Below are positions 30,887-51,471 of a stretch of DNA of 64,000 nucleotides, piece by piece. The position numbers were made by a program, and so were the translations under genes. The notes under the pieces were generated by a model, which saw only the letters and a program-made list of their open reading frames with translations, did no database searches and was not told where the DNA came from. Position 1 is the stretch's first letter; each line of letters opens with the position of its first letter. Source of the stretch: Microvenator marinus (GTDB lineage Bacteria > Myxococcota_A > Bradymonadia > Bradymonadales > Bradymonadaceae); contig NZ_CP042467.1 of NCBI RefSeq assembly GCF_007993755.1, positions 4,612,001 through 4,676,000 on the forward strand. Reading direction: 5' to 3'.

Positions 30887-30941
30887 AACCTAGAAGACCT
30901 CCTTGAAGTGGGTTTGCACACGGTATGAAAATCGTGTGAAA
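30887..30941 (-). promoter_or_regulatory. Triple-heptamer box plus -10 for membrane-protein copy 2
   Basis: Minus-strand TTTCACA, TTTCATA and GTGCAAA are separated by 4 bp each (plus positions 30935-30941, 30924-30930, 30913-30919). Exactly 20 bp later comes TAGGTT (30892-30887). The box ends where the divergent AlbA-like gene begins, so that gene may also be affected. Confidence 0.7.
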
Positions 30942-30949
30942 TGTGCTGC

Positions 30950-32104
30950 ATGAATGCTTCAGAAGTCCTCCAACTCATCAAGTATGGCGAGAATTCACGC
31001 GTGTCGCTTAAGCGGGACAACCTCCGCCCTGACATGCTTGCCCGCGATATTGTGGGCATGTCGAACTCATTCGGCGGTCATATCATCATGGGCGTTCAGG
31101 ACGATGGAAGCATCAGTGGGGTGGAGCTCCCCGGCCTCAAAGAATGGCTAGTGAACACGGTCTTTGCCAACTATGTGTATCCTCCAGTTCCTTTGATGCT
31201 CGAGGAGGTTGAAGTTCTGGCCGGCAAATATGTGGCTATCATCACGGTCTCCGAAGGCCTCGCAAAGCCTTACGTGGTTCGAAACACCGGCCTTGAAGAC
31301 ATCTATGTGCGAACCGGTAGCGTCTCTAAGTTGGCAACCCGGGAGGAGAGTGCCCTGCTTTTTGCCGGTGGAGGCCTCGTACGCTCAGAACTACTTCCGG
31401 CATTGGGAACCAATCTGGATGATTTGGATCTGGTACGTCTCGAGGATTATCTCCACAACCTCGTGGGTGACACGGTGTTACCGGAAGGTTCCGAGGCCTG
31501 GGTGGAACGGTTATGTGGACTCGGTTTCATGGTCGAACAAGGAGAGGTGTGTTGCACCATCGCGGGACTTCTGCTCTTTGGGCACGCGCCTCGCCAAAGT
31601 CTTCCTCAGGCCGGTATTCGATGGAAGGGTTTTGACGAAGACGCGCTATTGCACGGTCCGCTGCTGCCTTTGGGAGCCGCGAGCCCAGGTGGTGCGCGGC
31701 GCATCAAGGAGCTGGGCTTGCTCGATGACGTGTTTGCTAGAATTCGGTCCTTCTGCGCCGACTACCCGCACGAGGCCATCCTGGAAGCCGTGCTGAACGC
31801 CGTATTGCATCGCGACTGGACCCGTGGCTCCGAGGTGGAGATTCTAAAGGATGCCGACAGAATCGAAATCACGAGCCCTGGTGCCCTCCCGAACTTCATG
31901 ACTCTCGAAAAGGTCCTCGCCGGTCAGCGTTTTCAACGAAACTCCATCATCTCGGACGTGCTCCGAGACTATGGTTATGCGGAAAGGCCAGGCATGGGCG
32001 TTCGGCGGAAGATTGTTCGGCTTACCCGCGAGCTTACTGGTAAAGACGCCGTCTTCGAGTCTACTGACGACTATTTCAAGGTCATCATTCCGGCAAAGAC
32101 CTAA
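30950..32104 (+). CDS. AlbA_2 / ATP-binding (COG2865-type) putative regulator
   Basis: The N-terminal ~110 residues match the Schlafen AlbA_2 fold: YGENSRVSLKRD, DIVGMSNSFGGHIIMGVQDD, then DIYVRTGS. The C-terminal part has a histidine-kinase-like ATPase motif (EAVLNAVLHRDW ... ITSPGALP ... YAERPGMGV). Proteins with this pairing are annotated as transcriptional regulators or RecG-like factors, and several AlbA_2 proteins act in phage defence. The start is uncertain between ATG codons at 30941 and 30950, with no clear ribosome site. It is divergent from membrane-protein copy 2. Confidence 0.75.
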   Translation: MNASEVLQLIKYGENSRVSLKRDNLRPDMLARDIVGMSNSFGGHIIMGVQDDGSISGVELPGLKEWLVNTVFANYVYPPVPLMLEEVEVLAGKYVAIITVSEGLAKPYVVRNTGLEDIYVRTGSVSKLATREESALLFAGGGLVRSELLPALGTNLDDLDLVRLEDYLHNLVGDTVLPEGSEAWVERLCGLGFMVEQGEVCCTIAGLLLFGHAPRQSLPQAGIRWKGFDEDALLHGPLLPLGAASPGGARRIKELGLLDDVFARIRSFCADYPHEAILEAVLNAVLHRDWTRGSEVEILKDADRIEITSPGALPNFMTLEKVLAGQRFQRNSIISDVLRDYGYAERPGMGVRRKIVRLTRELTGKDAVFESTDDYFKVIIPAKT

Positions 32105-33298: not shown

Positions 33299-33326
33299 TT
33301 GACATTCTCCGTCCGATGTCTATACT
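33299..33326 (+). promoter_or_regulatory. Near-consensus sigma70 promoter upstream of the DUF6119 gene and cas operon
   Basis: TTGACA (33299-33304), a 16-bp spacer and TATACT (33321-33326) form the best promoter in the window. The expected start is near 33333, about 160 bp before the DUF6119 start codon. The whole 435-bp gap 33058-33492 holds only this promoter, the direct repeats, the divergent box and the hairpin; I see no gene in it. Confidence 0.75.
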
Positions 33327-33335
33327 CAAGAAACT

Positions 33336-33367
33336 AAAGAACCCATCGTTGGAGCGATGGGTTCTTT
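33336..33367 (+). terminator. Perfect hairpin at the very start of the transcript (attenuator-like)
   Basis: AAAGAACCCATCG (33336-33348) pairs perfectly with CGATGGGTTCTTT (33355-33367) around a six-base loop. It begins a few bases after the predicted transcription start. Only a short T run follows, so it may be a weak terminator, a 5' stabilising stem or an attenuator instead of a full stop. Confidence 0.5.
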
Positions 33368-33492
33368 GAAACAATCTAGACACCCTCAAACGAAGGCCTC
33401 CAAACTGCCGTGCAGACCCAGCAGTTTACCGCGATTCCGCGGATTGGCAAGCGTGAAGGTGTCGCCGTGCCCTATGAGGCAGGAGGTATCTG

Positions 33493-35106
33493 ATGTTGTT
33501 GCCGAAAGTGTTGGAGAAGTCGAGCGGTGTAGATGGTCAAACTCAAGGGGGCTCCATTGAAGAACAGTTTGATCGACAAATAGTGTCTGAGTCGACATCG
33601 CTTCCGCGCCCTTCGGGGCGCGGCCCCAATCATGATGTATCACTCTATCTAGCCAAAGAAGGGGTTGACTTAGAAGCCGTTTTTGAAGGGAAAGGGGCGG
33701 AAGAATTGGAGTTTGACCAAGAGGGGGTTGTCGGCAGGTTTAAGTGCAGTCGGAGAAAGCAACCTGGCTGGGTCGGTTTCTTTCGGAAACATCTGGTGAG
33801 TGAGATCGACCTTAGCGTTGAAAGCGTTTCAGTTGCCATTGCATTCAGGGTTTCCGAACGCGTCTTTGTTGTCACTTTTGGTGGCGGAAGACATTTGTTG
33901 GACGCCGCAAAGCTTGAGCCGCAGTTTGGTCTTGTAGTCGCGTCTCATCTCATACCTATCGATGAAATGCATCAATTGACCAGCTCCACTCTTTCCAAAT
34001 TTCCGCAAGAGTCTCGCTGTACTAGTCTCAACAAAAAGCCAGCGGAGTTTTTTGGAATAGATTTGGAACTAGAAGATGTACGCAAGGTGGTCGGCGCAAG
34101 TAGTGACATTGTAAACCGAGTCGCAGGCTCGAACCACTTGAAGATGCACTCGTTTCATGGAGAGTTGTCTGAACTTATGGAGGTTTGCCCACGATTCTTG
34201 GAGTGTTTTGCAAAGGGGATAGAGCCTAGTTACGAATTCCTCAAAAACCTTACGAGGGTTGAAAAGAAGGATCCGAGATATCAGCAACTTGAAGCGATTT
34301 TGGAGGCTGAAGTGGCTAAAACTCCGACTTCTTTCGATCTCAACGTTGAAGGCGAATCCTGGGAAAGAACCAAGAACGTGCGTGTGTACTATGGGAAATC
34401 TTCCGAGGATTGCGACTTCGATACGTTTATTGAGGCGGCATTGCGGATCGCAAAGAAGGCGGGAGTTCCCCTTGGGAAAGTCAAACTTGAGTTAAGTGAT
34501 GAACAGGACGAGGCCCTTTATGGAGGCGCTGTGTTAGCATCACTCAGCGGAGAAGTTGAGCATAGCGAACGCCTCTATCTTATCATGGCTGGGCGGTGGT
34601 TCGAAATTGGAGAGAGTTATGTAGAAAGTCTGGATGATAGGATCGCCGCGCTGGAGCAGGACTGGAAACTTCCAGCATGGAAAGGCTCTGAGGACGACTA
34701 CAACAAGTCCGTCGCAGAAAAGTTTGGTTGGATCAATCTTGATAAGAATCTCATCCAAATGGGCAGGTCAAAGGGCGCATTTGAAGCTGCCGACCTTGCT
34801 GGGGAAGATGTCTTGTTTCACGTCAAATCTGGGACGTCATCTGCTGCGCTAAATCACCTGTACGGACAGATTCATACTGCTGCTGTTCTCTTAGGCAAAA
34901 GCCGCGCGGCTCGAGAGAAATTGACCGAGAAGTCAAGAACTGGTCGTCCGATCGGATTTGTAGCAGGTATCGGAAGAGAGAAATCTGACGGTCCACTACT
35001 TGGAAGGATGATTGTTGCGAAAGTCGGACTCCTGCAGTGTGCTGCCAATGTTCGGAAATTGGGTTTCGAGTTCAGCGTCGCTCGCATCAAAATCGCGAAA
35101 AGTTAG
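33493..35106 (+). CDS. TIGR04141/DUF6119-family protein next to CRISPR-Cas
   Basis: The ATG at 33493 has AGGAGG seven bases upstream. The family-like start (VSLYLAKEGVDLEAVFEG) begins near residue 48, so the first ~45 residues are an extension; their coding region contains an 8-bp UUCG hairpin at 33604-33623, so a later start is not excluded. The C-terminal region has GWINLDKNLIQMG, then FEAADLAGEDVLFHVKSGTS and SAALNHLYGQI. The spaced E/D and H-x-K resemble PD-(D/E)xK nuclease signatures typical of this sporadically distributed, defence-linked family. A nuclease activity is inference. It lies 135 bp before cas3 on the same strand. Confidence 0.7.
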   Translation: MLLPKVLEKSSGVDGQTQGGSIEEQFDRQIVSESTSLPRPSGRGPNHDVSLYLAKEGVDLEAVFEGKGAEELEFDQEGVVGRFKCSRRKQPGWVGFFRKHLVSEIDLSVESVSVAIAFRVSERVFVVTFGGGRHLLDAAKLEPQFGLVVASHLIPIDEMHQLTSSTLSKFPQESRCTSLNKKPAEFFGIDLELEDVRKVVGASSDIVNRVAGSNHLKMHSFHGELSELMEVCPRFLECFAKGIEPSYEFLKNLTRVEKKDPRYQQLEAILEAEVAKTPTSFDLNVEGESWERTKNVRVYYGKSSEDCDFDTFIEAALRIAKKAGVPLGKVKLELSDEQDEALYGGAVLASLSGEVEHSERLYLIMAGRWFEIGESYVESLDDRIAALEQDWKLPAWKGSEDDYNKSVAEKFGWINLDKNLIQMGRSKGAFEAADLAGEDVLFHVKSGTSSAALNHLYGQIHTAAVLLGKSRAAREKLTEKSRTGRPIGFVAGIGREKSDGPLLGRMIVAKVGLLQCAANVRKLGFEFSVARIKIAKS

Positions 35107-35241
35107 TGGAGGCACGGTGCGTGCCGATAACTCATTTACTATCCTGAATTGACCAAGTTCGTGTTGACCCCCTTTGGGTTCTATGTTGCCATCGTGCGCA
35201 AGAAACAACATGACCGGGTGAACTTTTTTTGAGGAGTTCGT

Positions 35242-37584
35242 GTGAACTATTCTGCTTTTTTTGAAGCAGCTACTCGCTTTCCGCCATATCCTTATCAGGA
35301 GAAACTGGCGGAGGGCCCGTGGCCGGATCGATTAAAAATTCCTACTGGGCTTGGTAAGACTGGAGCGGTCGCATTGGCATGGGCCTACCGGCATCTGGAA
35401 GGCTCTCCCGATGCACATACGCGCCTAGTTTGGTGCTTACCAATGAAAGTCTTAGTCGAGCAAACCGCGGATGTAATCGAGGGTTGGCTGGCTAGTTTGG
35501 AGCCAACGTTTTCATCTGCAGGCAAGACCTTGCCTCGAGTTCAGAGATTGCTTGGGGGGCATGTTGACGCCGATTGGACCAACACCCCAGAGGTTCCTAC
35601 TGTGATCGTCGGCACTCAAGACATGTTGCTCTCGCGTGCGTTGATGCGCGGATACGGTATGAAGCGTTACGCTTGGCCTATGCATTACGCCTGGCTTCAT
35701 AACGATGCGCTCTGGGTGTTCGATGAGACACAGCTTATGGGAGTCGGTGTTGAGACCAGTGCCCAGCTAGCTGGACTCCGCAAGAAGCTTGGGAGTTTTC
35801 GGCCGACCCATTCATTGTGGATGAGTGCTACTTTGGGGGATCAGCAACTCGACACGGTCGATCACCCGTTGGAGAAGTTAGGGCCTCCGCTATCCTTGGG
35901 GGAGAAGGACTTTCAGCATGACGCAGTGGTAAAGAGAACCCGGTCCAAGAAGTCAGCTACCAAAGCAGAAGCCACCGTAGCCAAAGACGTGGATATCAGC
36001 GAACTCGTCTCGAACGTCCTCAAGGAGCATCAAGAGGGAAGTCTTTCTCTCGTGATTCTAAATCGGGTTTCTCGTGCGCAAGAGGTTTTTGAGGGGCTTC
36101 TGAACGCTGGAAGAACGCTAGAAAATACCGCTCTCTTGCATTCGCGGTTTAGACGAGGTGATCGCGCCAAACACATGGAAATGTTGAAGGCGGAAGGGGA
36201 TCGAATCATTGTGTCGACCCAAGTGATCGAAGCTGGAGTAGATATCAGCTCAAAGACCATGTTTACGGAGTTGGCGCCCTGGTCCTCGCTAGTTCAGCGA
36301 TTCGGCCGTTGCAGCCGTGGCGGCGAGTTCCACGATGCGCGGGTCTTTTGGGTAAACATTGAACCCAAGGATGAAAAGGATGACTTATGTCTGCCCTATA
36401 CCCTGAAGGAGCTTGATGAGTCGCGAGCGATCCTGAGTTCACTTGGCGATGTGGGGCCTGAATCACTTTCAAGCGTAAACTGGCAGCCGACCCCTGTTGT
36501 GCGTCCAGTGCTCAGGCGTAGAGACCTTCTAGAACTTTTTGACACCTCGGCGGATCTCTCCGGAGACGATCTGGACGTCTCTCGTTATGTCCGTGACAGC
36601 AGCTCGCCGGACGTATTTGTATACTGGCGTAGTTGGGAAGGTGAGAAGCCGTCTGAAAAAGACAAGGAGCTTCAGTCTCCACATGAGGAGGAGTTGTGCC
36701 GCATTTCTATTTCGCAGGCGGTCAAGTTTCTCAAGGACACAGCTTATAGCTTTAACCATCTTACCGAACGTTGGGAGCTTTGCGGAAAGTCGGTGGTTCC
36801 CGGCAAAACCTATCTTGTTCCAGCAAGTGCTGGCGGTTACACACCGGAACTTGGCTTTACTGGAAAGAAGCTTAAGAAAGGCGAGGAAGTCGAGGTCTTC
36901 AAAACGAGTGAAGTAGAGCCTGAATCAATGGATTCGGATCCACGCTCGTTCAAGAAGTCTTGGATTTCACTCGCGGACCACACTGAGCATGTTGTCACTG
37001 AATGCAAAGCGCTCCTAGTCAGCCTGGGGATCGATGGCCAGACCAGTGAGTTGATGTTGCGCGCCGCTCGCTGGCATGACGCAGGCAAGGCTCACGAAGT
37101 TTTCCAGCATGTTCTGGCCGCTGATAAAGCGCCAAATCCTGGTACATGGGCAAAATCTGCTCTCGAGGGGAATAAGCCAACCAGGAAGTTCTTCAGGCAC
37201 GAGCTAGCCTCGATGCTTATCTACAAACAATACTTCCCCGAAGACGACTTGGGGGCCTTCATCATTCTGGCTCACCACGGGAAGGTAAGGTTGAGCCTGC
37301 GTGCCCTACCCGATGAAAATCGACCAGGCGCGGCTGACACAGTATTCGCGCGAGGCGTATGGCATGGTGACGTGGTCAGAGCTGCGGAACTTGGTGGAGG
37401 AACACGCTTTGATGACACCGATTTGGACCTTTCGTTTGTCCGCCTAGGACCGAACTCGTGGGCAGAACGCATGCTTCGATTGCGAGACTCGCCTGATATG
37501 GGGCCATTTCGAATGGGCTACTTGGAGGCGATCTTACGAAGTGCCGACCAACGTGCGAGCGCCAAGGAGGCCGGAAATGTTTGA
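35242..37584 (+). CDS. cas3: Cas3 helicase-nuclease, type I-G (C-terminal HD)
   Basis: The GTG at 35242 follows GAGGAG. The helicase part has the Walker A IPTGLGKTGAVALAW (~33-47), WCLPMKVLVEQT, the DExH-like box VFDETQLMG (~158-166), SATLG, STQVIEAGVDIS and QRFGRCSRGG. The HD nuclease is at the C-terminus, as is characteristic of this subtype: RWHDAGKAHEVFQHV (~610-625) and ILAHHGKVR. Cas3 unwinds and degrades DNA found by the Cascade complex. The end overlaps csx17 by eight bases. All expected motifs are present. Confidence 0.95.
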   Translation: MNYSAFFEAATRFPPYPYQEKLAEGPWPDRLKIPTGLGKTGAVALAWAYRHLEGSPDAHTRLVWCLPMKVLVEQTADVIEGWLASLEPTFSSAGKTLPRVQRLLGGHVDADWTNTPEVPTVIVGTQDMLLSRALMRGYGMKRYAWPMHYAWLHNDALWVFDETQLMGVGVETSAQLAGLRKKLGSFRPTHSLWMSATLGDQQLDTVDHPLEKLGPPLSLGEKDFQHDAVVKRTRSKKSATKAEATVAKDVDISELVSNVLKEHQEGSLSLVILNRVSRAQEVFEGLLNAGRTLENTALLHSRFRRGDRAKHMEMLKAEGDRIIVSTQVIEAGVDISSKTMFTELAPWSSLVQRFGRCSRGGEFHDARVFWVNIEPKDEKDDLCLPYTLKELDESRAILSSLGDVGPESLSSVNWQPTPVVRPVLRRRDLLELFDTSADLSGDDLDVSRYVRDSSSPDVFVYWRSWEGEKPSEKDKELQSPHEEELCRISISQAVKFLKDTAYSFNHLTERWELCGKSVVPGKTYLVPASAGGYTPELGFTGKKLKKGEEVEVFKTSEVEPESMDSDPRSFKKSWISLADHTEHVVTECKALLVSLGIDGQTSELMLRAARWHDAGKAHEVFQHVLAADKAPNPGTWAKSALEGNKPTRKFFRHELASMLIYKQYFPEDDLGAFIILAHHGKVRLSLRALPDENRPGAADTVFARGVWHGDVVRAAELGGGTRFDDTDLDLSFVRLGPNSWAERMLRLRDSPDMGPFRMGYLEAILRSADQRASAKEAGNV

Positions 37585-39685
37585 ACTTGAACTCAAAGGC
37601 TGTCGTACTCGGCCGCTGGCCCACTACCTGAAATCCATAGCTGTCTTACGACTGGTTTCTCAACAGGTGGACCCGGAAGCCCGCGGCTTCTGGCGATCCG
37701 ACCACTTCGTGCTTCAATCCAGCCTCGACCGCGAAGAGTTGTTGAGCTTCTTTGCCCACGGTTATGAGCCGTCGCCGATCATTGCGCCCTGGAACGGTGG
37801 GAGCGGGTTTTATCCCAAGGATAACTCCACCGCGCTCGAGACCATTCTTGGAAGCACTGCGCCGAGATTTTCTCGGTATCAGGAGTCGATTCGCGCTGCA
37901 CAAAGAGTCGTTGAAGAGTTTGGTTTGGATGGAAAGCCCGACTCGGATACCAAGGGTGAACTCATCAACCAAATGCGCAACCGTCTTCCGGATGATGCGG
38001 TGGAATGGATTGATGCTGCTCTTGTGATGACCACGGAGTTGTCGTCCGGCGACTTCAAGGACGTTCCCAAGTTTCCGCCCGTCCTGGGGACCGGCGGCAA
38101 CGATGGACGTTTGGAATTCACAAATAACTTCATGCAGCGACTTCTGGATGCTTTGAGCCCAAACGGGGAACCTCTCGAAGGTTCTTTGGGATGGCTTGCT
38201 TCAGCGCTATTCGAGGACCTAACTCAAATCGCTGGTTCGGGGGCAATTGGCCAGTTTTACCCGTCGGCCGCAGGCGGGGCCAACTCCACAACCGGATTCG
38301 AAGGAAACTCTGCGTTCAACGTCTGGGATTTCATCCTCATGATGGAAGGCGCAATCGCGTTCTCTTCTGCAGCAGTGAAGCGCCTTGAAGCAGACCCAAA
38401 TGGAGCATTAAGTGCACCATTTGTGGTGCGACAAACGACATCGGGATACGCGTCCTCGTCTGACCAAGACAAGTCACGGGCGGAAATGTGGCTTCCACTT
38501 TGGGAAGAGCCAGCCTCTTTTCCAAGCATTCAGGCTTTGCTTGGTGAAGGACGTGCCAGAGTAGGTCGGCGCAACGCAAGCAACGGGCTTGATTTTGCAC
38601 GTGCGGTGGCATTGCTTGGAATCGATCGCGGTATCACAGCTTTTGAAAGGTATGGCTTTCAGGAGCGCAATGGGCTCTCAACGTTCGCCATTCCCCTTTC
38701 ACGCTTCGAGGTGCGGCCGAATCCTGATGTTGAGCTTTTGAGGAGTATTGATGCTTGGTTGAGCATCTTCCTTTCCCGTGCTGGGGGTGAACACGCTCCA
38801 GGCTCAGTCAGACGCGTGGGTCGACAGCTCGAAGACGCGGTTATGAAAATGACCCAGCGGCCGGGACACTCATCTACGCAAGATGTGTTGGTAGCTCTGG
38901 GTCGGGCACAAGCAGCCCTATCGAACAGCCACAAATGGGCGCAGGAAAATGTACGCCCGATGCCAGAACTGAAAGAAAACTGGCTTGAAAGAGCGAGCGA
39001 CAACTCTTCGGAGTGGCGACTCGCCTCCGCATTGGCTTCAATACAAGTCAATGGTCACGGCAAGCTGCGTACGGCGATCGAACCGGTCACGGACAAGGGC
39101 GACTGGGTGAAAGAATACACGCCAGATCACGTCCGTGAGGGTAACGTCGAGGATCTCTTGCACGGACTCTTACATCGTTGGCTACTTGAACTCGAGAACA
39201 AGCCTAGTCGCGAGCCACAGTCGGCCAATCCAAACCCGAATTGGTTTGTCGAGGCGAGCCGCTTTGCCAGACTTGAAGACATCAATCACTTCCTAAACCA
39301 TCAGGTTGATGAGGCGAGGCTCTATGATCTCATTCGCGCACTGATGTTGGTGAAGCCCGTTGAGGACACCAAACAGGCTGAGAGTGACGTTATCGTTCCA
39401 TTGGATTACGGGATCGTTCGACTTGCTCATTCCCCCTGGTTGGTCCGCGAGGTGGGACCAAGCCGTGACCCAGCAATCTTGAGGCAGCTGGTTGCGGGGA
39501 AAAATGGGGTAATCTCGGCCGGGCGTAGGCTTAAGGTAAGCGGTCTGGCCCCGGCAGTGAACACAAAAGACATTGATGTCTCGCAGACCCGCGCAAAACG
39601 GATCGCTGCGGTGATTGCATTTCCGATTTCACTACAATCAATCAATAAGATTGCAGACTACATACTCAAACCAAAACAAGACTGA
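37577..39685 (+). CDS. csx17: Csx17 (Cas8g), type I-G large subunit
   Basis: The start is set to the ATG at 37577, six bases after AAGGAGG and overlapping the cas3 stop; the earlier ATG would be inside cas3. The N-terminus MFELELKGCRTRPLAHYLKS, then IAVLRLVSQQ, is typical of Csx17. At 702 residues it fits the family. It replaces Cas8 in type I-G complexes and should recognise the PAM and bridge to Cas3. The gene order cas3-csx17-csb1-csb2 supports this strongly. Confidence 0.92.
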   Translation: MFELELKGCRTRPLAHYLKSIAVLRLVSQQVDPEARGFWRSDHFVLQSSLDREELLSFFAHGYEPSPIIAPWNGGSGFYPKDNSTALETILGSTAPRFSRYQESIRAAQRVVEEFGLDGKPDSDTKGELINQMRNRLPDDAVEWIDAALVMTTELSSGDFKDVPKFPPVLGTGGNDGRLEFTNNFMQRLLDALSPNGEPLEGSLGWLASALFEDLTQIAGSGAIGQFYPSAAGGANSTTGFEGNSAFNVWDFILMMEGAIAFSSAAVKRLEADPNGALSAPFVVRQTTSGYASSSDQDKSRAEMWLPLWEEPASFPSIQALLGEGRARVGRRNASNGLDFARAVALLGIDRGITAFERYGFQERNGLSTFAIPLSRFEVRPNPDVELLRSIDAWLSIFLSRAGGEHAPGSVRRVGRQLEDAVMKMTQRPGHSSTQDVLVALGRAQAALSNSHKWAQENVRPMPELKENWLERASDNSSEWRLASALASIQVNGHGKLRTAIEPVTDKGDWVKEYTPDHVREGNVEDLLHGLLHRWLLELENKPSREPQSANPNPNWFVEASRFARLEDINHFLNHQVDEARLYDLIRALMLVKPVEDTKQAESDVIVPLDYGIVRLAHSPWLVREVGPSRDPAILRQLVAGKNGVISAGRRLKVSGLAPAVNTKDIDVSQTRAKRIAAVIAFPISLQSINKIADYILKPKQD

Positions 39686-40639
<954 letters not shown>

Positions 40640-40642
40640 TCC

Positions 40643-42211
40643 ATGATTCAAATGGACATCAAATTCTTGGCTGGAAAGGTACACGCGACGCCATGGGATC
40701 ACCATGTGAACGAGGGCGTCGTAGAATGGCCGCTCTCGCCCTGGCGTATTCTGCGCGCATTGATTGCTACGTGGCACATAAAAGCTCAGGAGATACCGCG
40801 TGAGGCGGTGCAAGAGTTGATTGAGGCGATGTGTGGTGTGGACCCTCAGTTTGCGATGCCAAAGCAGATTGGCTCTGGCCATACGCGTCACTATATGCCG
40901 ACTCGAACGTCCACTACCAAGGTGTTCGACACGTTCTTGATCGTTTCGGCCGAGGATCGTTTAGGGGTGCGTTGGCCAGTGGACCTGAGTCCCGAGCTTC
41001 ACGATGTGCTGGAAACACTAGTTGCCCGCATTGGCTATCTAGGGCGTGCTGAGGCTTGGGCGAGTGTCGAGCTTAGTAAGCGCGAATGGGACGAGTCCGA
41101 AGCCATCTGTTCAACCAAACGAACCGAAGAAGGGGAGCTGGTGCGTCTGCTCAACGCCTATCCACCAAGTCAATACGAGGCTTGGAGGGAAGGCATGATG
41201 CAGGGTTGGTCACACCACGCGTTGGTGGCCGCTGCCGAGAAGAAGGGAAAACCTCTCGACGAAGTTAAACTCTCGGCCAAAGAGAAAGCCAAGATTGAAG
41301 AGCGGCTGCCCGAATCCCTCTTTGATGCTCTGCAACTTGATACTGCTGACATCCAAAAGGATGGTTGGAGTTTGCCACCAGGAGCCCGGTGGGTGGAGTA
41401 CTACCGACCACATGCGGAACCACCGGATCTGACGAGAATCTCCTATGATACCGGAGGTCAACTTCCTCAGGTTGCCACCTTCGCCCTCTATTCCAATGTG
41501 TTGCCGCTCTTTACGGACGCGTTTCACGTCGCTTCTATTATGCATCGCGCACTTGTATCCAGGGATCCTTCAAACCCGTTATTCTCGGGTCGCGGTGCGG
41601 ACGGTGAGCCATTGAAAGGGCATGAGCACGTATTTATCTTTCCAGAACACGAAAGTGGAAAGAAGCACATCTCCAAGATCTCGCTCTATCTCGAGAGTGG
41701 ATTTGACAACGATGCTGTGAAAGCTCTGCTCACCTTGACCAAGCTCTATAGCCAGGAAGGCGAATTCCAAGAACAGAAACTCGTTCTCCTTGAGTTAAGT
41801 GAAGCAAAGAGCGCCCAATGCAAAGCGGTGGGCAGTAGCAAAGTTTGGGAATCGTACACCCCGTTTGTAGCTACTAGGCACCCCAAGATTCGGCGAAATG
41901 GTACTGCAAAGTACGAGAACGGCCTCGTCGTTGGAAGTTCGGAGCATGACTTACGTCGCCTGCTTGCAGAAGGCGGCTATCCTGGTCCGATTAACGTCAC
42001 AGTGGTTGACTCGACGACGCTGGCTAAGGAAGAGCGGTGGTTGAAGTTTCGGACACACCGGAAAAGCAGACGGGGTGCGCGTGGGCCACATTTACCCACA
42101 GGCTACCGAATCGAGTTTGCTGAAGTCCAAGCTGGGCCGATCGCCCTTGGATACGGTGCCCACTTCGGATTGGGGATGTTCGTGCCAGTAGAAATCTCTG
42201 GAATAAGTTAA
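40643..42211 (+). CDS. csb2: Csb2 (Cas5-Cas6 fusion, GSU0054 family)
   Basis: The N-terminal half begins IQMDIKFLAGKVHATPWDHH and WPLSPWRILRALIATW, as in Cas5-like GSU0054 proteins. The C-terminus carries a RAMP glycine-rich loop (GPIALGYGAHFGLGMFVPV) of the Cas6 part. In type I-G this protein both caps the crRNA 5' end and cuts the repeat hairpin, so no separate cas6 is needed and none is seen. Length 522 fits the family. The hicA promoter overlaps or follows its end. Confidence 0.93.
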   Translation: MIQMDIKFLAGKVHATPWDHHVNEGVVEWPLSPWRILRALIATWHIKAQEIPREAVQELIEAMCGVDPQFAMPKQIGSGHTRHYMPTRTSTTKVFDTFLIVSAEDRLGVRWPVDLSPELHDVLETLVARIGYLGRAEAWASVELSKREWDESEAICSTKRTEEGELVRLLNAYPPSQYEAWREGMMQGWSHHALVAAAEKKGKPLDEVKLSAKEKAKIEERLPESLFDALQLDTADIQKDGWSLPPGARWVEYYRPHAEPPDLTRISYDTGGQLPQVATFALYSNVLPLFTDAFHVASIMHRALVSRDPSNPLFSGRGADGEPLKGHEHVFIFPEHESGKKHISKISLYLESGFDNDAVKALLTLTKLYSQEGEFQEQKLVLLELSEAKSAQCKAVGSSKVWESYTPFVATRHPKIRRNGTAKYENGLVVGSSEHDLRRLLAEGGYPGPINVTVVDSTTLAKEERWLKFRTHRKSRRGARGPHLPTGYRIEFAEVQAGPIALGYGAHFGLGMFVPVEISGIS

Positions 42212-42243: not shown

Positions 42244-42489
42244 ATGGAAGAAGACATCTTGTATCTCCAACAAAGCAAGACTGTTCGTTTTGCTAGGCTG
42301 GTTCGGATTTGCACCAAGTGGTTTGGAGAACCGAGAGTCACGGGTAGCCATCATGTGTTCAAGACTCCATGGAAGGGCGATCCGAGAGTTAATCTTCAAA
42401 GGGCCGGCAAGGATGCAAAGCCTTATCAGGTTAAACAAGTTATCGCGGCGCTCGAAAGGCTGTCTGGAGGAAATGAAGATGAACTTTGA
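42244..42489 (+). CDS. hicA: HicA-type mRNA interferase toxin
   Basis: The 81-residue protein has the HicA core GSHHVFKTPWKGDPRVNLQ, with the catalytic histidine region GSHH, and the C-terminal YQVKQVIAALERL helix. Its N-terminus is slightly longer and more polar than in many HicA proteins. AGGTGGGG precedes the ATG. HicA cleaves mRNA through its double-stranded-RNA-binding-like fold. It overlaps hicB by 11 bases and lies between csb2 and the CRISPR array. Confidence 0.88.
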   Translation: MEEDILYLQQSKTVRFARLVRICTKWFGEPRVTGSHHVFKTPWKGDPRVNLQRAGKDAKPYQVKQVIAALERLSGGNEDEL

Positions 42490-42832
42490 AGAATTGGCGA
42501 GCAGGTATAGCTACAACGTGTCGTGGTCGCCGGAAGACGAGGTTTATATCGGGCGAGTTGTGGAATGGCAGAGTCTGGCTGCGCACGCCGATTCCCCAGA
42601 ACAGGCGCTAGCGGAAATCCTCAACGTTGTGGCAATTGCCATAGAGGATTGCGAAGAAGACGGAGACGAATACCCGATGCCGATAAACCAACGGGGATTT
42701 AGTGGCCGTTTCAATGTCAGGTTGCCCCAACACCTGCACAGGGACTTGGTCCTATTCGCAGAACGCAACAACGTTTCGTTGAATCAGGCAGTAACCGAAC
42801 TACTCTCCGGTGCAGTAGCGAAGCACCTCTAA
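42479..42832 (+). CDS. hicB: HicB-type antitoxin with ribbon-helix-helix end
   Basis: The ATG at 42479 is favoured over 42473 because GGAGG then sits eight bases upstream. The N-terminal part (YNVSWSPEDEVYIGRVVEW ... SLAAHADSPEQALAEI) is the partly degraded RNase H-like HicB fold. The C-terminal part (GRFNVRLPQHLHRDLVLFAE, then NNVSLNQAVTELL) is the DNA-binding module. It should block HicA and repress the operator at 42217-42232. The stop is only 15 bp from the terminal CRISPR repeat. Confidence 0.9.
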   Translation: MNFEELASRYSYNVSWSPEDEVYIGRVVEWQSLAAHADSPEQALAEILNVVAIAIEDCEEDGDEYPMPINQRGFSGRFNVRLPQHLHRDLVLFAERNNVSLNQAVTELLSGAVAKHL

Positions 42833-43398
42833 CGAATGGCGGGGCACGTTCTAATGGGGTCGCATCCATACGGATGCGGAGGGCTGGCCTTTATGGGCGG
42901 TTGGAATCGGAGGTGTTCCTGCTTCAATGGGGCCGCATCCATGCGGATGCGGAGGGCGCGGTGGAGAGGAAGGGTCTCGCCGGTGCGGTCGGCGTTGCTT
43001 CAATGGGGCCGCATCCATGCGGATGCGGAGGGTTGTACGTCTTTGAACCGGTTTGGGGTGGCTTGCCTGGGCTTCAATGGGGCCGCATCCATGCGGATGC
43101 GGAGGGCTACGGCGAGCACATCGAGGAAGCGGCGCAACTCTTGCTTCAATGGGGCCGCATCCATGCGGATGCGGAGGGTTTGATGTTTCTGTCTGGCTCA
43201 TTGATTCCTCTGTATTTGCTTCAATGGGGCCGCATCCATGCGGATGCGGAGGGTTCGATCAAGCAAGGGGCAAACACGCCCCGCCCGGGCTTCAATGGGG
43301 CCGCATCCATGCGGATGCGGAGGGGGCCCCGATAGCGCCCACGATGACGAGCGCGGCCGAGTGCTTCAATGGGGCCGCATCCATGCGGATGCGGAGGG

Positions 43399-43438
43399 TA
43401 CCAGCAGGCTGCGGTTGATGCCGTGCTTCAATGGGTGC
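43399..43438 (-). repeat. Spacer containing 11 bp of repeat sequence
   Basis: This 40-bp spacer includes GCTTCAATGGG at 43425-43435, identical to the first 11 bp of the repeat. The true repeat starts 14 bp further on at 43439. It looks like a slipped duplication at a spacer-repeat junction. Confidence 0.85.
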
Positions 43439-44104
43439 GCTTCAATGGGGCCGCATCCATGCGGATGCGGAGGGGGCAAGGGCGCGCTTGGTGTCAGCGT
43501 CCGAAATGACCTCGCTTCAATGGGGCCGCATCCATGCGGATGCGGAGGGGAGGTCTTGGTCAGAAGACCAAGCTCTGAGTCCGAGACGCTTCAATGGGGC
43601 CGCATCCATGCGGATGCGGAGGGGACGTGTGGTCGACCAAGGTCGGCGTGGACACACCACGGCTTCAATGGGGCCGCATCCATGCGGATGCGGAGGGGCG
43701 CTACACAGACTGGGGTGTGCCGTGTGAGTGCAAGCTTCAATGGGGCCGCATCCATGCGGATGCGGAGGGGTGGCGGTTTTCAAGGATGCGCTGCACCGGT
43801 CCACTGTGCTTCAATGGGGCCGCATCCATGCGGATGCGGAGGGCACTCGCCCCTACCAGAGCCAAATCGATATCGGTGCTCAGCTTCAATGGGGCCGCAT
43901 CCATGCGGATGCGGAGGGGCCGAAATGGTGAAGCTACTGGACCCGAGCACCAGCATTGCTTCAATGGGGCCGCATCCATGCGGATGCGGAGGGGGTGAGT
44001 GCGGGATGAGCTTCATGCCGCGTGTGGTGAGGCTTCAATGGGGCCGCATCCATGCGGATGCGGAGGGAGTGGCCCAAGCCTCCGCTGACGATTGTGGAGG
44101 ATGA

Positions 44105-44396
44105 GCTTCAATGGGGCCGCATCCATGCGGATGCGGAGGGGCGTGTGGCGAAGGCAATCAGCCGTAAGGAGGACAAGTGCTTCAATGGGGCCGCATCCAT
44201 GCGGATGCGGAGGGTGATGGCGTTCATACCGGTGAACCCTAACGAGCGTCGCTTCAATGGGGCCGCATCCATGCGGATGCGGAGGGGCGTGTGGCGAAGG
44301 CAATCAGCCGTAAGGAGGACAAGTGCTTCAATGGGGCCGCATCCATGCGGATGCGGAGGGTGATGGCGTTCATACCGGTGAACCCTAACGAGCGTC
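44105..44396 (-). repeat. Exact tandem duplication of a two-spacer block in the array
   Basis: 44105-44250 (two repeats, two spacers) is repeated exactly at 44251-44396. The spacers begin GCGTGTGGCGAAGG and TGATGGCGTTCATACC. Recombination between repeats or replication slippage explains it. Confidence 0.95.
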
Positions 44397-44839
44397 GCTT
44401 CAATGGGGCCGCATCCATGCGGATGCGGAGGGCTCAGCGCTAGGCGCAGGCGCTGGGTTCGGATATCGGCTTCAATGGGGCCGCATCCATGCGGATGCGG
44501 AGGGGGGAGGCCCTTCATTGTTTCGGCGAAGCTTTGCGAGCGGCTTCAATGGGGCCGCATCCATGCGGATGCGGAGGGAACATATGAAGGGCGCACCGTT
44601 GCATGAAGTTGTGCAGCTTCAATGGGGCCGCATCCATGCGGATGCGGAGGGGCGCGGGACGGCCCTTTAGACCGCGAGCCTTGGTGGGCTGGCTTCAATG
44701 GGGCCGCATCCATGCGGATGCGGAGGGACTGCAATATGGAGCGATTCTCAGACGAGGAATACGAGCTTCAATGGGGCCGCATCCATGCGGATGCGGAGGG
44801 CGTAGATCCCTCAAGCCCGCATTGCGGAGTATGAGGCCG

Positions 44840-45427
44840 GCTTCAATGGGGCCGCATCCATGCGGATGCGGAGGGGGCGCTCTTCCCAGCGGTAGGAGTC
44901 TGGATTTCTGGAGCTTCAATGGGGCCGCATCCATGCGGATGCGGAGGGGTTCTTGAAAACACTTTCCATCCTGTAATTTTAGCGACGCTTCAATGGGGCC
45001 GCATCCATGCGGATGCGGAGGGATCTTTATCTCGACTCAGGAAAGTTTAGCTAGCTTAAGCTTCAATGGGGCCGCATCCATGCGGATGCGGAGGGCGGCC
45101 CGTTTGAAATCAAGGCAGGTGTGTGATGGGATGGCTTCAATGGGGCCGCATCCATGCGGATGCGGAGGGGGCGCTCTTCCCAGCGGTAGGAGTCTGGATT
45201 TCTGGAGCTTCAATGGGGCCGCATCCATGCGGATGCGGAGGGGTTCTTGAAAACACTTTCCATCCTGTAATTTTAGCGACGCTTCAATGGGGCCGCATCC
45301 ATGCGGATGCGGAGGGATCTTTATCTCGACTCAGGAAAGTTTAGCTAGCTTAAGCTTCAATGGGGCCGCATCCATGCGGATGCGGAGGGCGGCCCGTTTG
45401 AAATCAAGGCAGGTGTGTGATGGGATG
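44840..45427 (-). repeat. Exact tandem duplication of a four-spacer block in the array
   Basis: 44840-45133 (four repeats, four spacers, 294 bp) is repeated exactly at 45134-45427. The four spacers begin GGCGCTCTTCCC, GTTCTTGAAAAC, ATCTTTATCTCG and CGGCCCGTTTG in plus-strand order. Confidence 0.95.
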
Positions 45428-48400
45428 GCTTCAATGGGGCCGCATCCATGCGGATGCGGAGGGTATGTCTGGCCGGCCGCGAATCTGCGCAACAGGAACC
45501 TGCTTCAATGGGGCCGCATCCATGCGGATGCGGAGGGGTGCCAGACGCCGTGCTCAATAACTGGCTGCATAAGATGCTTCAATGGGGCCGCATCCATGCG
45601 GATGCGGAGGGAGGGCATGATTATGAGCGCACCGATGCCGAATAAGGTGCTTCAATGGGGCCGCATCCATGCGGATGCGGAGGGTGAGCTCGGTGACCTG
45701 GTAGGACACGATTTTGAGTCGCTTCAATGGGGCCGCATCCATGCGGATGCGGAGGGGTAGCCCGCGCCACCCTCAAGGTAGAGCAGGAACGCCCGCTTCA
45801 ATGGGGCCGCATCCATGCGGATGCGGAGGGCGGCGTAATATGACCCAAGGTCTTTTTTGGAGAATGAGGCTTCAATGGGGCCGCATCCATGCGGATGCGG
45901 AGGGGATTGATGTTCCGCAGCGGGTGGCAGCGCCGTCGTGCTTCAATGGGGCCGCATCCATGCGGATGCGGAGGGAACCAGTACGCCATCAGATGACTGG
46001 AAGACGATATCTGCTTCAATGGGGCCGCATCCATGCGGATGCGGAGGGCCGCGTAAATGCGTCGCTGGTACTTCAGGTACACGGCCTGCTTCAATGGGGC
46101 CGCATCCATGCGGATGCGGAGGGCAGTGTAGTTGTTTGGAACTGCGCGCCGACGAGCTCAGCTTCAATGGGGCCGCATCCATGCGGATGCGGAGGGCATG
46201 GGATCTGACTCTGGGGTCTGATTGCGAGCTCGTGCTTCAATGGGGCCGCATCCATGCGGATGCGGAGGGCCAGGCTCTTTGCAGAACTTGACGAAGGCTT
46301 TGCAGAACTCGCTTCAATGGGGCCGCATCCATGCGGATGCGGAGGGTCCGACAGCAACGGCAAGGACGAGCCTACGGAGGCCTGCTTCAATGGGGCCGCA
46401 TCCATGCGGATGCGGAGGGGGAAAAGAACACGAAGCCAAATGGTCTGAGCTTTCCTCAGCTTCAATGGGGCCGCATCCATGCGGATGCGGAGGGTTCCCA
46501 CGTGCTCGATTGGTCCCTGATATAGCCCTCGTTGCTTCAATGGGGCCGCATCCATGCGGATGCGGAGGGGGTACAGCCGTTTCCTTTGCGTTCGCTTCTG
46601 CCTTCGCTCGCTTCAATGGGGCCGCATCCATGCGGATGCGGAGGGGTCTGGGTATATTCAACGCAAGGGGGCGCGTGGGTTAGCTTCAATGGGGCCGCAT
46701 CCATGCGGATGCGGAGGGCCTTGGACATCTCCATCGATACCTGGCCAGCAGCAAAGAGCTTCAATGGGGCCGCATCCATGCGGATGCGGAGGGTTTCGAC
46801 GGCTGAGGATCGCTCCGCCGCCTGGCTCGCTTCAATGGGGCCGCATCCATGCGGATGCGGAGGGAAAAGACGCGGTTTCGTCACCAATGCGCCGCATACA
46901 GCTTCAATGGGGCCGCATCCATGCGGATGCGGAGGGCATTGTCACTAATACGGTGTCAATTGTCACTTACACAAGCTTCAATGGGGCCGCATCCATGCGG
47001 ATGCGGAGGGCGCAACCGTCTGGCCCGATCAGTGGACAAAGTGGGTGGCTTCAATGGGGCCGCATCCATGCGGATGCGGAGGGGGGGGCGGTCTTCGTCA
47101 AAAACTTGGCCCTCTTTCATCTGGCTTCAATGGGGCCGCATCCATGCGGATGCGGAGGGACGCGAGGGTAGCCTTCGACGGTTGCCGGCGTCTTGCTTCA
47201 ATGGGGCCGCATCCATGCGGATGCGGAGGGTGCCGAGGCGGTCGCTCTTTCGAGCGGCGTGGAAAAGGCTTCAATGGGGCCGCATCCATGCGGATGCGGA
47301 GGGACGCTCTGATGCGTCACAAGTGGATTGAGGCGCTCGTAGCTTCAATGGGGCCGCATCCATGCGGATGCGGAGGGACCCCGGTAAACAGGGGTAACCT
47401 GCGGTAGATTGCGAGCTTCAATGGGGCCGCATCCATGCGGATGCGGAGGGGGCCTTAATTCAAAAACCCAGACTGATATCGAAGATGAGCTTCAATGGGG
47501 CCGCATCCATGCGGATGCGGAGGGGTCTTTGTCATAGTCCTCAAGCCACTTTGAGCCCTTGGGCTTCAATGGGGCCGCATCCATGCGGATGCGGAGGGGA
47601 CTTCCAGTTTGCCGTCTCAGCGCAAGCTCCGATGCTTCAATGGGGCCGCATCCATGCGGATGCGGAGGGGCGCCCACTCAATATCCACCGGCACTAAAGT
47701 CGCACCGCTTCAATGGGGCCGCATCCATGCGGATGCGGAGGGGGGCCATCGTAAAATTCGGGTGGCCCGCCTCGATCTGGCTTCAATGGGGCCGCATCCA
47801 TGCGGATGCGGAGGGGTGAGGGCGTGATCCGGCGTGTCCGCAACGTTAAAGACATGCTTCAATGGGGCCGCATCCATGCGGATGCGGAGGGACGATAGGA
47901 ACTCGACGCCGTGGTGTGCGCATGCCCGCTTCAATGGGGCCGCATCCATGCGGATGCGGAGGGCCTAGTTGAGTGCTACCAGCAGCGCGCCATAGGTACG
48001 GTTGGCTTCAATGGGGCCGCATCCATGCGGATGCGGAGGGTAGGGCCCCGATTTATGACGGGCGACAATACACACGCGCTTCAATGGGGCCGCATCCATG
48101 CGGATGCGGAGGGAAGCTAAACGATGTCCTGAAGAAACAGGACGAAGCTAAGCTTCAATGGGGCCGCATCCATGCGGATGCGGAGGGGCTTGGCGCGTAC
48201 CTTCGCAAGCTTGGTGAAGACGTTGCTTCAATGGGGCCGCATCCATGCGGATGCGGAGGGCTATTGAGAAAGGTAGAAGAAAAGAAAAAACAAATTGCTT
48301 CAATGGGGCCGCATCCATGCGGATGCGGAGGGGCTAGAAATCCGTCAGATGAACGAGGGGTTTGAGGCTGCTTCAATGGGGCCGCATCCATGCGGATGCG

Positions 48401-50978
48401 GAGGGGCTGTTCACCTGCGTGAACGTGGTCGACGTCGTGGTGCTTCAATGGGGCCGCATCCATGCGGATGCGGAGGGACTGGGATATCGGGGCGGAGTGC
48501 TGGGATCTCCCGGTCGCTTCAATGGGGCCGCATCCATGCGGATGCGGAGGGCAAAGTGACGCAATACGCGCCAGAATCGAAGAGCTTTTGCTTCAATGGG
48601 GCCGCATCCATGCGGATGCGGAGGGTACACCACCCAACATCATCGAATCGGATTGTTCTGTCAGCTTCAATGGGGCCGCATCCATGCGGATGCGGAGGGG
48701 TTGTAGACCGGGCCCTTAAAGCGTTCCTCCTGCGTGATGCTTCAATGGGGCCGCATCCATGCGGATGCGGAGGGCTGCGGCCAGGTCGGTAATCGGCCGG
48801 CCGACGTTGTGCTTCAATGGGGCCGCATCCATGCGGATGCGGAGGGGGGGGCCTGTCGGGACTCATCACAGGTAAAAACATGAAGCTTCAATGGGGCCGC
48901 ATCCATGCGGATGCGGAGGGGTGCTCACGGAGTCCCCCATTTTGATTGGCTGTACGACTGCTTCAATGGGGCCGCATCCATGCGGATGCGGAGGGCACTG
49001 TGGACGGCGTTAAGTGCGCAACCTTCGTCCGGCTTCAATGGGGCCGCATCCATGCGGATGCGGAGGGATTTCTGGAGAAGCTGCCCTTGATCGGTACCGA
49101 CTCGAGCTTCAATGGGGCCGCATCCATGCGGATGCGGAGGGCATCATGATGTCAGGGGTACGCCCTGCCTAAAAACGGCTTCAATGGGGCCGCATCCATG
49201 CGGATGCGGAGGGTCCGCGAATCTCAGCTTCCAGCTCGGCAGGAGTTGCCCGCTTCAATGGGGCCGCATCCATGCGGATGCGGAGGGGTGTTGAACCATT
49301 CCAATCATCGGGAACTGTAACAAAGAGCTTCAATGGGGCCGCATCCATGCGGATGCGGAGGGTTGCAACAAAGAAACCCCATATGAGGACGTAACAACAG
49401 CTTCAATGGGGCCGCATCCATGCGGATGCGGAGGGTGCGAATCGAGGGCTCATCGAATCAAGGAGCTTGAGGGCGCTTCAATGGGGCCGCATCCATGCGG
49501 ATGCGGAGGGTTCGGCGGCTGTACAAGCTAATCAGGGCGAATCTTGCTTCAATGGGGCCGCATCCATGCGGATGCGGAGGGGCTCGCTACCTTGGCTACT
49601 ACGGCAACGGGGTCGTGCATGCTTCAATGGGGCCGCATCCATGCGGATGCGGAGGGCGAACGCCATACTTGCCGCAACGCCGCGTGATTGTGATGCTTCA
49701 ATGGGGCCGCATCCATGCGGATGCGGAGGGGATTTCATTGAGTGGCATGAGTGCTGTGGCAGACCAAAAGCTTCAATGGGGCCGCATCCATGCGGATGCG
49801 GAGGGCTTAATGAACCCGTCAGTGTGTCCTTTCATCAAGCCATTGCTTCAATGGGGCCGCATCCATGCGGATGCGGAGGGGGGTCTTATTTCTTCTGCGG
49901 GTACTTCAACTGTAACTGCTTCAATGGGGCCGCATCCATGCGGATGCGGAGGGGCTGCCGCATCGGGCGACCTCGTGTGTGGTTACGCGCTTGCTTCAAT
50001 GGGGCCGCATCCATGCGGATGCGGAGGGATCACGTCACCACCTAAAGAGATCTCAGTGTTCTATAATGCTTCAATGGGGCCGCATCCATGCGGATGCGGA
50101 GGGACTGGGACATCGGCGCGGAGTGCTGGGGCCTGCCAGTCGCTTCAATGGGGCCGCATCCATGCGGATGCGGAGGGAAAAGGAGACACCATGCAAGACC
50201 TCATCAAGAAAATTGCTTCAATGGGGCCGCATCCATGCGGATGCGGAGGGGCGGATAATTCGTACGCCTGTTGGTTCAGCGGTCTGCTTCAATGGGGCCG
50301 CATCCATGCGGATGCGGAGGGACTATAAATGTAAGTGAAGAAGGTCGAATAAAAACAGCTTCAATGGGGCCGCATCCATGCGGATGCGGAGGGTTGTAAC
50401 TCCACTCGGGAGAAACCCGAAACAACGGAGACGCTTCAATGGGGCCGCATCCATGCGGATGCGGAGGGTCGGGGAGGGGTATGCTGCAACCGCCGAAGAG
50501 ATTGCTTCAATGGGGCCGCATCCATGCGGATGCGGAGGGACAGAATCAGCCAGATTGAGAACGGTCGAAAGTATTTGCTTCAATGGGGCCGCATCCATGC
50601 GGATGCGGAGGGTATCCAAAAATGTCGGGCGCGATGGTGGACGAAACCACGAGCTTCAATGGGGCCGCATCCATGCGGATGCGGAGGGCAACCAGCGGCC
50701 AATCAGGCGCCCCCGGCGTTGAATGCTTCAATGGGGCCGCATCCATGCGGATGCGGAGGGCGCGCGCACGCGAAACAACCCAGCAATCTAGTAATAGGCT
50801 TCAATGGGGCCGCATCCATGCGGATGCGGAGGGGTCGACAACCGACCTGTGTTCCGAGTTGATTCACAGCTTCAATGGGGCCGCATCCATGCGGATGCGG
50901 AGGGGGCGGGTCGACCTTCATCAGTCGGTAGGCGATCTTTTGGCTTCAATGGGGCCGCATCCATGCGGATGCGGAGGG

Positions 50979-51168: not shown

Positions 51169-51471
51169 TCATAGCACAAAAGCACGTCGTGTTCCTGCTT
51201 TGAAAGGCTTACCAATAGCCGTAACAGCGTTTGAGCCGCGCCCCTGAACTGGGCCCAAGTCAAAGAAGAGGACCTGGTCTTCGTCATGTTGAATCAACTC
51301 GGCCAGCTTGGCTTGGAGTCTAGTCATGGAGATTTCATTCAACTCCACGCAAAACACGGAATACTGAATGTGCTCGCCGAAGCCTTTAAGGCACTCAAAG
51401 ATATCCGTTCGCCTAGAGTCGTCGCAGATATCATACGTGATGATGATTCGGTTGATTCCAATTCTCATCAT
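51169..51471 (-). CDS. cas2: Cas2 adaptation protein
   Basis: The protein is about 100 residues. Its ferredoxin-like start (INRIIITYDICDDSRRTDIF) includes the conserved Asp after strand 1, followed by QYSVFCVEL and a middle acidic strand. With Cas1 it forms the spacer integrase. The start overlaps the end of the cas4-cas1 gene by four bases, so the two are coupled. Transcription runs toward the array. Confidence 0.93.
   Translation of the reverse strand: MMRIGINRIIITYDICDDSRRTDIFECLKGFGEHIQYSVFCVELNEISMTRLQAKLAELIQHDEDQVLFFDLGPVQGRGSNAVTAIGKPFKAGTRRAFVL

Follow-up and report, generated by a model that had tools for sequence, protein, structure and literature searches.

A divergent DUF6119 protein with predicted RdgC/RexA-like and nuclease-like parts beside a type I-G CRISPR locus: a candidate independent defence protein

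Organization of the locus

The window analysed here is a 64-kb stretch of the Microvenator marinus genome, in which a DUF6119/TIGR04141 gene precedes the genes of a type I-G CRISPR system. The genes and features of the locus are as follows.

33299-33326, plus strand: sigma-70-type promoter, TTGACA-N16-TATACT (promoter scan)
33335-33368, plus strand: perfect hairpin of 13-15 bp at the start of the leader, with a 13-bp inverted repeat at 33336-33367
33333-33492, plus strand: predicted structured 5' leader of the DUF6119 gene (folding compared with shuffles)
33481-33487, plus strand: Shine-Dalgarno sequence AGGAGGT, 5 bp upstream of the ATG (read from the sequence)
33493-35106, plus strand: DUF6119/TIGR04141 gene, 537 aa (PF19614 and TIGR04141 profile matches)
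35242-37584, plus strand: cas3g, helicase and HD nuclease (TIGR02621, E 7e-231)
37541-39685, plus strand: csx17/cas8g (TIGR04113, E 1.1e-190)
39698-40639, plus strand: csb1/cas7g (TIGR02570)
40643-42211, plus strand: csb2/cas5-6g (TIGR02165)
42244-42832: HicA-like and HicB-like pair, between csb2 and the CRISPR array
42848-50978, no strand: CRISPR array, 111 repeats of 36 nt
51169-51471, minus strand: cas2-like open reading frame, 100 aa (named by eye)
51468-53099, minus strand: cas4-cas1 fusion, 543 aa (Cas1 part PF01867, E 3.9e-88; Cas4 part named by eye)

The HicB-like protein matches PF05534 (E 5.4e-11), and the match of its HicA-like companion is weak and below the Pfam cut-off. In the array, 110 of the 111 repeats agree with the 36-nt consensus, the degenerate repeat being on the csb2 side, and 104 of the 110 spacers are distinct, with spacer blocks repeated near 44.8-45.4 kb. 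No spacer matched the remainder of the window at up to five mismatches. Past the array, the cas2-like and cas4-cas1 genes (51169-53099) lie on the opposite strand, convergent with the effector operon. Upstream of the DUF6119 gene, positions 30941-32104 encode a protein with Schlafen AlbA_2 and HATPase_c_4 domains, which has weak PADLOC matches to SIR2-pAgo models.

The earlier note on this DNA had called the promoter at 33299 the best in the window, and the scan agrees: no other site in the window agrees with the consensus at 11 of 12 positions, and about 0.1 such sites are expected per sequence (20 first-order Markov sequences). Because promoter-like sites as a whole are no more numerous than chance (9 in the window vs 8.3 in shuffles), only this top site is notable. 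The 13-bp hairpin described right after the promoter is also present and perfect, and it starts close to the position where transcription is predicted to begin; folded as RNA, it forms 15 base pairs (-22.6 kcal/mol, z -6.5). Its reality stands, with one correction, since the terminator scan finds its T-run on the minus strand and it is terminator-like there and not on the plus strand; its plus-strand role would therefore be that of a leader hairpin at the 5' end, or an operator, rather than a terminator. Positions 33333-33500 fold better than 200 of 200 shuffles (z -4.25), and the leader outside the hairpin has a z of -2.0. The leader (33333-33492) has no match in Rfam, and a similarity search found no other copy across the whole genome, its second row being the match of the hairpin to its own opposite strand. 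With AGGAGGT 5 bp upstream of it, the choice of start codon is fixed.

The distance from the DUF6119 stop codon to cas3g is 135 bp on the same strand, just as previously noted. In the sequence scan, this gap holds no terminator-like site, and the plus strand from 33326 to 38821 holds no promoter-like site, so that a single transcript carrying DUF6119 and the I-G cas genes, led by the DUF6119 promoter, is plausible. Shuffled versions of the gap fold as well as the gap itself (z 0.14). The cas genes are far more tightly packed among themselves (an overlap, 12 bp and 3 bp) than DUF6119 and cas3g are.

Family and distribution

The protein matches the family over its full length and far above both curated cut-offs (PF19614 DUF6119, E 1.7e-72, 245.2 bits vs a cut-off of 27; TIGR04141, 219.1 bits vs 35), which confirms the TIGR04141-like identity proposed earlier. 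It is a very divergent member, with at most 25% identity to any relative compared and the second-longest branch in the tree (3.68). This branch is joined to another long branch and its position is unstable, and for this reason we name no donor lineage. The family was found over many phyla, at 63 genome loci gathered by a pattern-plus-tblastn scan; the sample is biased, as one of two peptide patterns and likeness to a gammaproteobacterial query were required, and it includes near-duplicates (L070, L071 and L074; L079 and L095). A phage collection gave no match to DUF6119, and viral contigs gave one locus with query A2 and none with a single protein or with A3.

The PADLOC 2023 library has no DUF6119 family, and 57 members searched against its families matched nothing except for one weak AbiEii row; thus, no tested defence role is known in PADLOC. 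In open-access full text (subscription journals fall outside this scope), DUF6119 is named only in an unrelated wheat study and TIGR04141 is absent, and searches for RdgC with a nuclease domain and anti-phage activity together, or with PDDEXK, returned nothing. A search of open-access text for RdgC-like or RexA-like proteins with a nuclease and phage defence led to a RexAB paper, the available part of which does not describe the DUF6119 architecture (PMC12894663).

Predicted fold and putative active site

A structural model was predicted from a 57-sequence alignment, in which 8 fragmentary loci of 64 (63 genome, one viral) were omitted. The full model has a pLDDT of 85.6 and a pTM of 0.81, and residues 43-376 folded alone have a pLDDT of 89.5. 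Three parts are distinguished in the predicted model.

33619-34227, plus strand: residues 43-245, RdgC/RexA/Iml3-like fold
34228-34665, plus strand: residues 246-391, middle region with no convincing fold match
34666-35103, plus strand: residues 392-537, PD-(D/E)xK-like domain with E400, E431, D434, H443, K445, H455 and Q459

Foldseek found nothing in the PDB at E 0.001, its top rows being low-probability phytochromes, and the matches described below, all with VIA-align Z values under 8, are moderate. For the N-terminal part folded alone, a single fold fills the first six rows: RdgC (Z 6.8 with 160 residues aligned at an rmsd of 3.9, and Z 6.6), Iml3 (5.1 and 4.9) and CENP-L (4.7 and 4.3). Lambda RexA scores Z 3.8 with a poor rmsd of 13.2, in a range where unrelated proteins appear from Z 3.9. 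The N-terminal 200 residues align to almost the whole RdgC chain, with no detectable sequence similarity (hhalign Prob 2.1 against the RdgC profile). To our knowledge, RdgC and RexA lack a C-terminal nuclease-like domain, which is an additional part in DUF6119. As far as the accessible part of one study goes, RexA, RdgC and Iml3 share one DNA-binding fold, and the RexA-RdgC relationship was accepted there at a Dali Z of 4.4 (PMC11077077).

For residues 397-537, the VIA-align rows include CdiA-CT (4zqu, Z 6.9; 4g6u, Z 6.8), EndoMS (6.8), SfsA (6.6), FokI (6.3), EcoT38I (5.0) and XPF (4.5), all of which we take to belong to the PD-(D/E)xK superfamily, which accounts for most of the rows; CD38 (Z 6.1 and 5.9) and other unrelated rows are interspersed with them. 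Four matches below 0.001 in a viral library included an 'exonuclease' of phage PTXU04 (E 1.1e-4) and a phage RdgC (E 2.4e-4). Sequence profiles gave no useful link between DUF6119 and any PDB chain or the Pfam nucleases, and a comparison with one sequence of Kiwa KwaB (PF16162) gave a Prob of 0.2. In the predicted model, then, the N-terminus resembles RdgC, RexA and Iml3, and the C-terminus resembles PD-(D/E)xK nucleases, the latter in line with what had been suggested from the sequence.

Key residues of the C-terminal domain are strongly conserved: E400, E431, D434, K445, H455 and Q459 are identical in all 57 sequences, of which 51 have H at position 443, five have C and one has A. Conservation at S450-A458 arises partly by construction because this segment overlaps a pattern used to find loci; the same six columns are also invariant in alignment A1, which holds 12 mostly plasmid-derived sequences collected without patterns. 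The window copy retains all seven key residues despite its long branch; it has neither C433 nor the serine at 454, and no PFFS motif. An E-x-D followed by H-x-K had been described here; the H-x-K is correct (H443-x-K445), and the acidic part is instead E-x-x-D (E431-A-A-D434). Like the PD-(D/E)xK nucleases EndoMS, FokI, SfsA and CdiA-CT, the domain has, in the predicted model, an alpha-beta-beta-beta-alpha-beta order, together with an invariant D...K...Q, and all 57 sequences carry the second-strand acid and the putative catalytic lysine, as D434 and K445. Unlike in those enzymes, (D/E)-x-K is replaced by H-x-K: the D/E two residues before the lysine is not found, position 443 being H, C or A throughout the 57 sequences, and we therefore call the domain nuclease-like rather than canonical PD-(D/E)xK. 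The acids E400 and E431 may stand in for the missing D/E.

Neighbourhoods of DUF6119 and of type I-G CRISPR

Type I restriction-modification genes are a recurrent neighbour of DUF6119, which often sits between hsdS and hsdR. Ten of 50 DUF6119 loci have HsdR no more than 10 kb away, where the density of HSDR_N in those 50 genomes (61 matches over 226 Mb) predicts 0.30; the ratio is rough because the observed value comes from phmmer and the expected value from a Pfam model. HsdR or HsdM is near 14 of 63 loci, and in six of them (L010, L012, L068, L076, L088, L094) the order on one strand is hsdM-hsdS-DUF6119-(...)-hsdR. Among plasmids, where 10 of 13 matching loci were read, hsd genes adjoin DUF6119 in three (L007, L010, L012) and an HsdM-like gene is near it in a fourth (L013). 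At most DUF6119 loci examined hsdMSR is absent, and in the window the neighbour is type I-G CRISPR instead.

At loci without hsd genes, 84 neighbour proteins were scanned against PADLOC (25 of 374 families listed) and Pfam (25 of 91). Among the matches listed were SAVED/TIR, mad3, reverse transcriptases, DrmMII, RmrA, PglZ, BrxC and pPIWI_RE, each accounting for 1-3 of the 84 proteins amid ordinary genes. BREX and CBASS genes are among the neighbours, and in Enhygromyxa the BREX methylase PglX directly precedes DUF6119. Together with the HsdR enrichment, these neighbours support the view of the family as defence-linked. In three actinobacterial genera (L070, L071, L074) the DUF6119 gene is near-identical and is preceded by a TrwC-type relaxase/helicase (identified in L074; L070 and L071 have homologs), a protein of 247 aa and a gene resembling RmrA; this cluster is perhaps a recently moved unit.

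With type I-G CRISPR, by contrast, no recurrent linkage was found. Among 377 genomes of the organism's phylum, each searched for both genes, DUF6119 is present in 3 and csx17 in 36 (34 over the cut-off), and the two occur together in one of the 36, the window's own genome. In Actinomycetota, csx17 is present in 12 of 396 genomes (11 over the cut-off), none of which has DUF6119. Conversely, 50 other DUF6119 genomes, out of 63, were searched for csx17, and one has it (G398), on a 22-kb contig that is not the DUF6119 contig. A survey of other I-G loci for the same neighbour, as the earlier note had proposed, did not recover it in any of 20 loci from the phylum that were read directly (one of them, L128, having no cas gene by the markers used). 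The flanks of other DUF6119 loci (L002-L013 and L044-L107, several of which end at contig ends) contain no I-G cas homolog. In the slot before cas3, ten proteins near eight I-G loci belong to unrelated families or have no match; families found near I-G loci were beta-lactamase, EGF/CBM, FG-GAP, SMR and Uma2. The accessible part of a type I-G structure paper names no such accessory gene (PMC9638904). Co-occurrence in the two phyla speaks strongly against DUF6119 as an accessory effector of type I-G, and its place beside this system looks like a one-off, not a fixed partnership.

Discussion

The reading that we favour, at a probability of roughly 55%, is that DUF6119 is an independent, horizontally moving defence protein, not a component of type I-G, in which an RdgC/RexA-like N-terminus would hold DNA and a PD-(D/E)xK-like C-terminus would act as a metal-dependent nuclease. 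Of the two possibilities raised by the earlier note, an accessory effector of type I-G and an independent defence gene sharing the locus, the second is the one supported by the defence-island neighbours and the lack of recurrent I-G linkage. That note had also named two observations that would count against an accessory role: the first, absence of a recurrent I-G association, is what we find, and the second, a separate transcript ending at a terminator of the gene's own before cas3, is not borne out by the sequence scan.

A common strand, a gap of 135 bp and a plausible single transcript with no intervening terminator-like or promoter-like site are compatible with an accessory effector or regulator that serves this particular I-G system alone, such as a nuclease brought in once Cascade or Cas3 has acted. 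We nevertheless consider this very improbable, given the co-occurrence counts in both phyla, the 20 I-G loci without the gene, and the flanks of other DUF6119 loci. The main rival is that DUF6119 acts as the toxin of a toxin-antitoxin or abortive-infection pair and is restrained by its partner. In L074, the upstream protein with HTH and M78-peptidase domains matches RmrA, the antitoxin of RosmerTA (RmrT-RmrA), with homologs in L070 and L071, and the fold neighbours of the C-terminus include CdiA toxin nucleases; RmrA is described, in the portion of the RosmerTA study available, as pairing with diverse toxins (PMC10440598). However, the three actinobacterial loci carry almost the same DUF6119 gene, most loci have no RmrA-like partner and the window has none, and models of RmrT, whose toxins are themselves diverse according to that same portion (PMC10440598), match 0 of 57 members; we regard a toxin as unlikely.

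It is also possible, though we think it rather improbable, that the fold matches reflect only common arrangements, and that the protein has another nucleic-acid role (RNA cleavage, or non-catalytic DNA binding that tunes restriction genes) or is a decaying copy in the window. The Z values under 8, the lack of a sequence link, H-x-K in place of (D/E)-x-K and the divergence of the window copy are all compatible with this reading. Yet the key residues are invariant over many phyla and retained even in this divergent copy, and the N-terminal fold matches are mutually consistent.

If DUF6119 is an independent defence nuclease, its N-terminal part would hold double-stranded DNA, clamping it as a dimer, and its C-terminal part would cut invader DNA, or the DNA of the cell in an abortive response. 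The cue that triggers it may be DNA ends, replication intermediates or the action of a partner system, and such a stand-alone enzyme would benefit from a place next to systems whose action breaks or translocates DNA. In the window, it would have docked at the I-G operon as the first gene of the transcription unit, probably sharing its promoter. A more speculative and, as a whole, doubtful extension is that a ring- or horseshoe-shaped clamp of the RdgC/RexA fold with its own nuclease serves as an interchangeable partner of type I restriction, BREX and type I CRISPR, loading on translocated or broken DNA and finishing its destruction.

The prediction of a clamp and a nuclease with named residues makes the sporadic DUF6119 family a testable candidate defence family, and one through which RexA-type phage exclusion and restriction may be connected.
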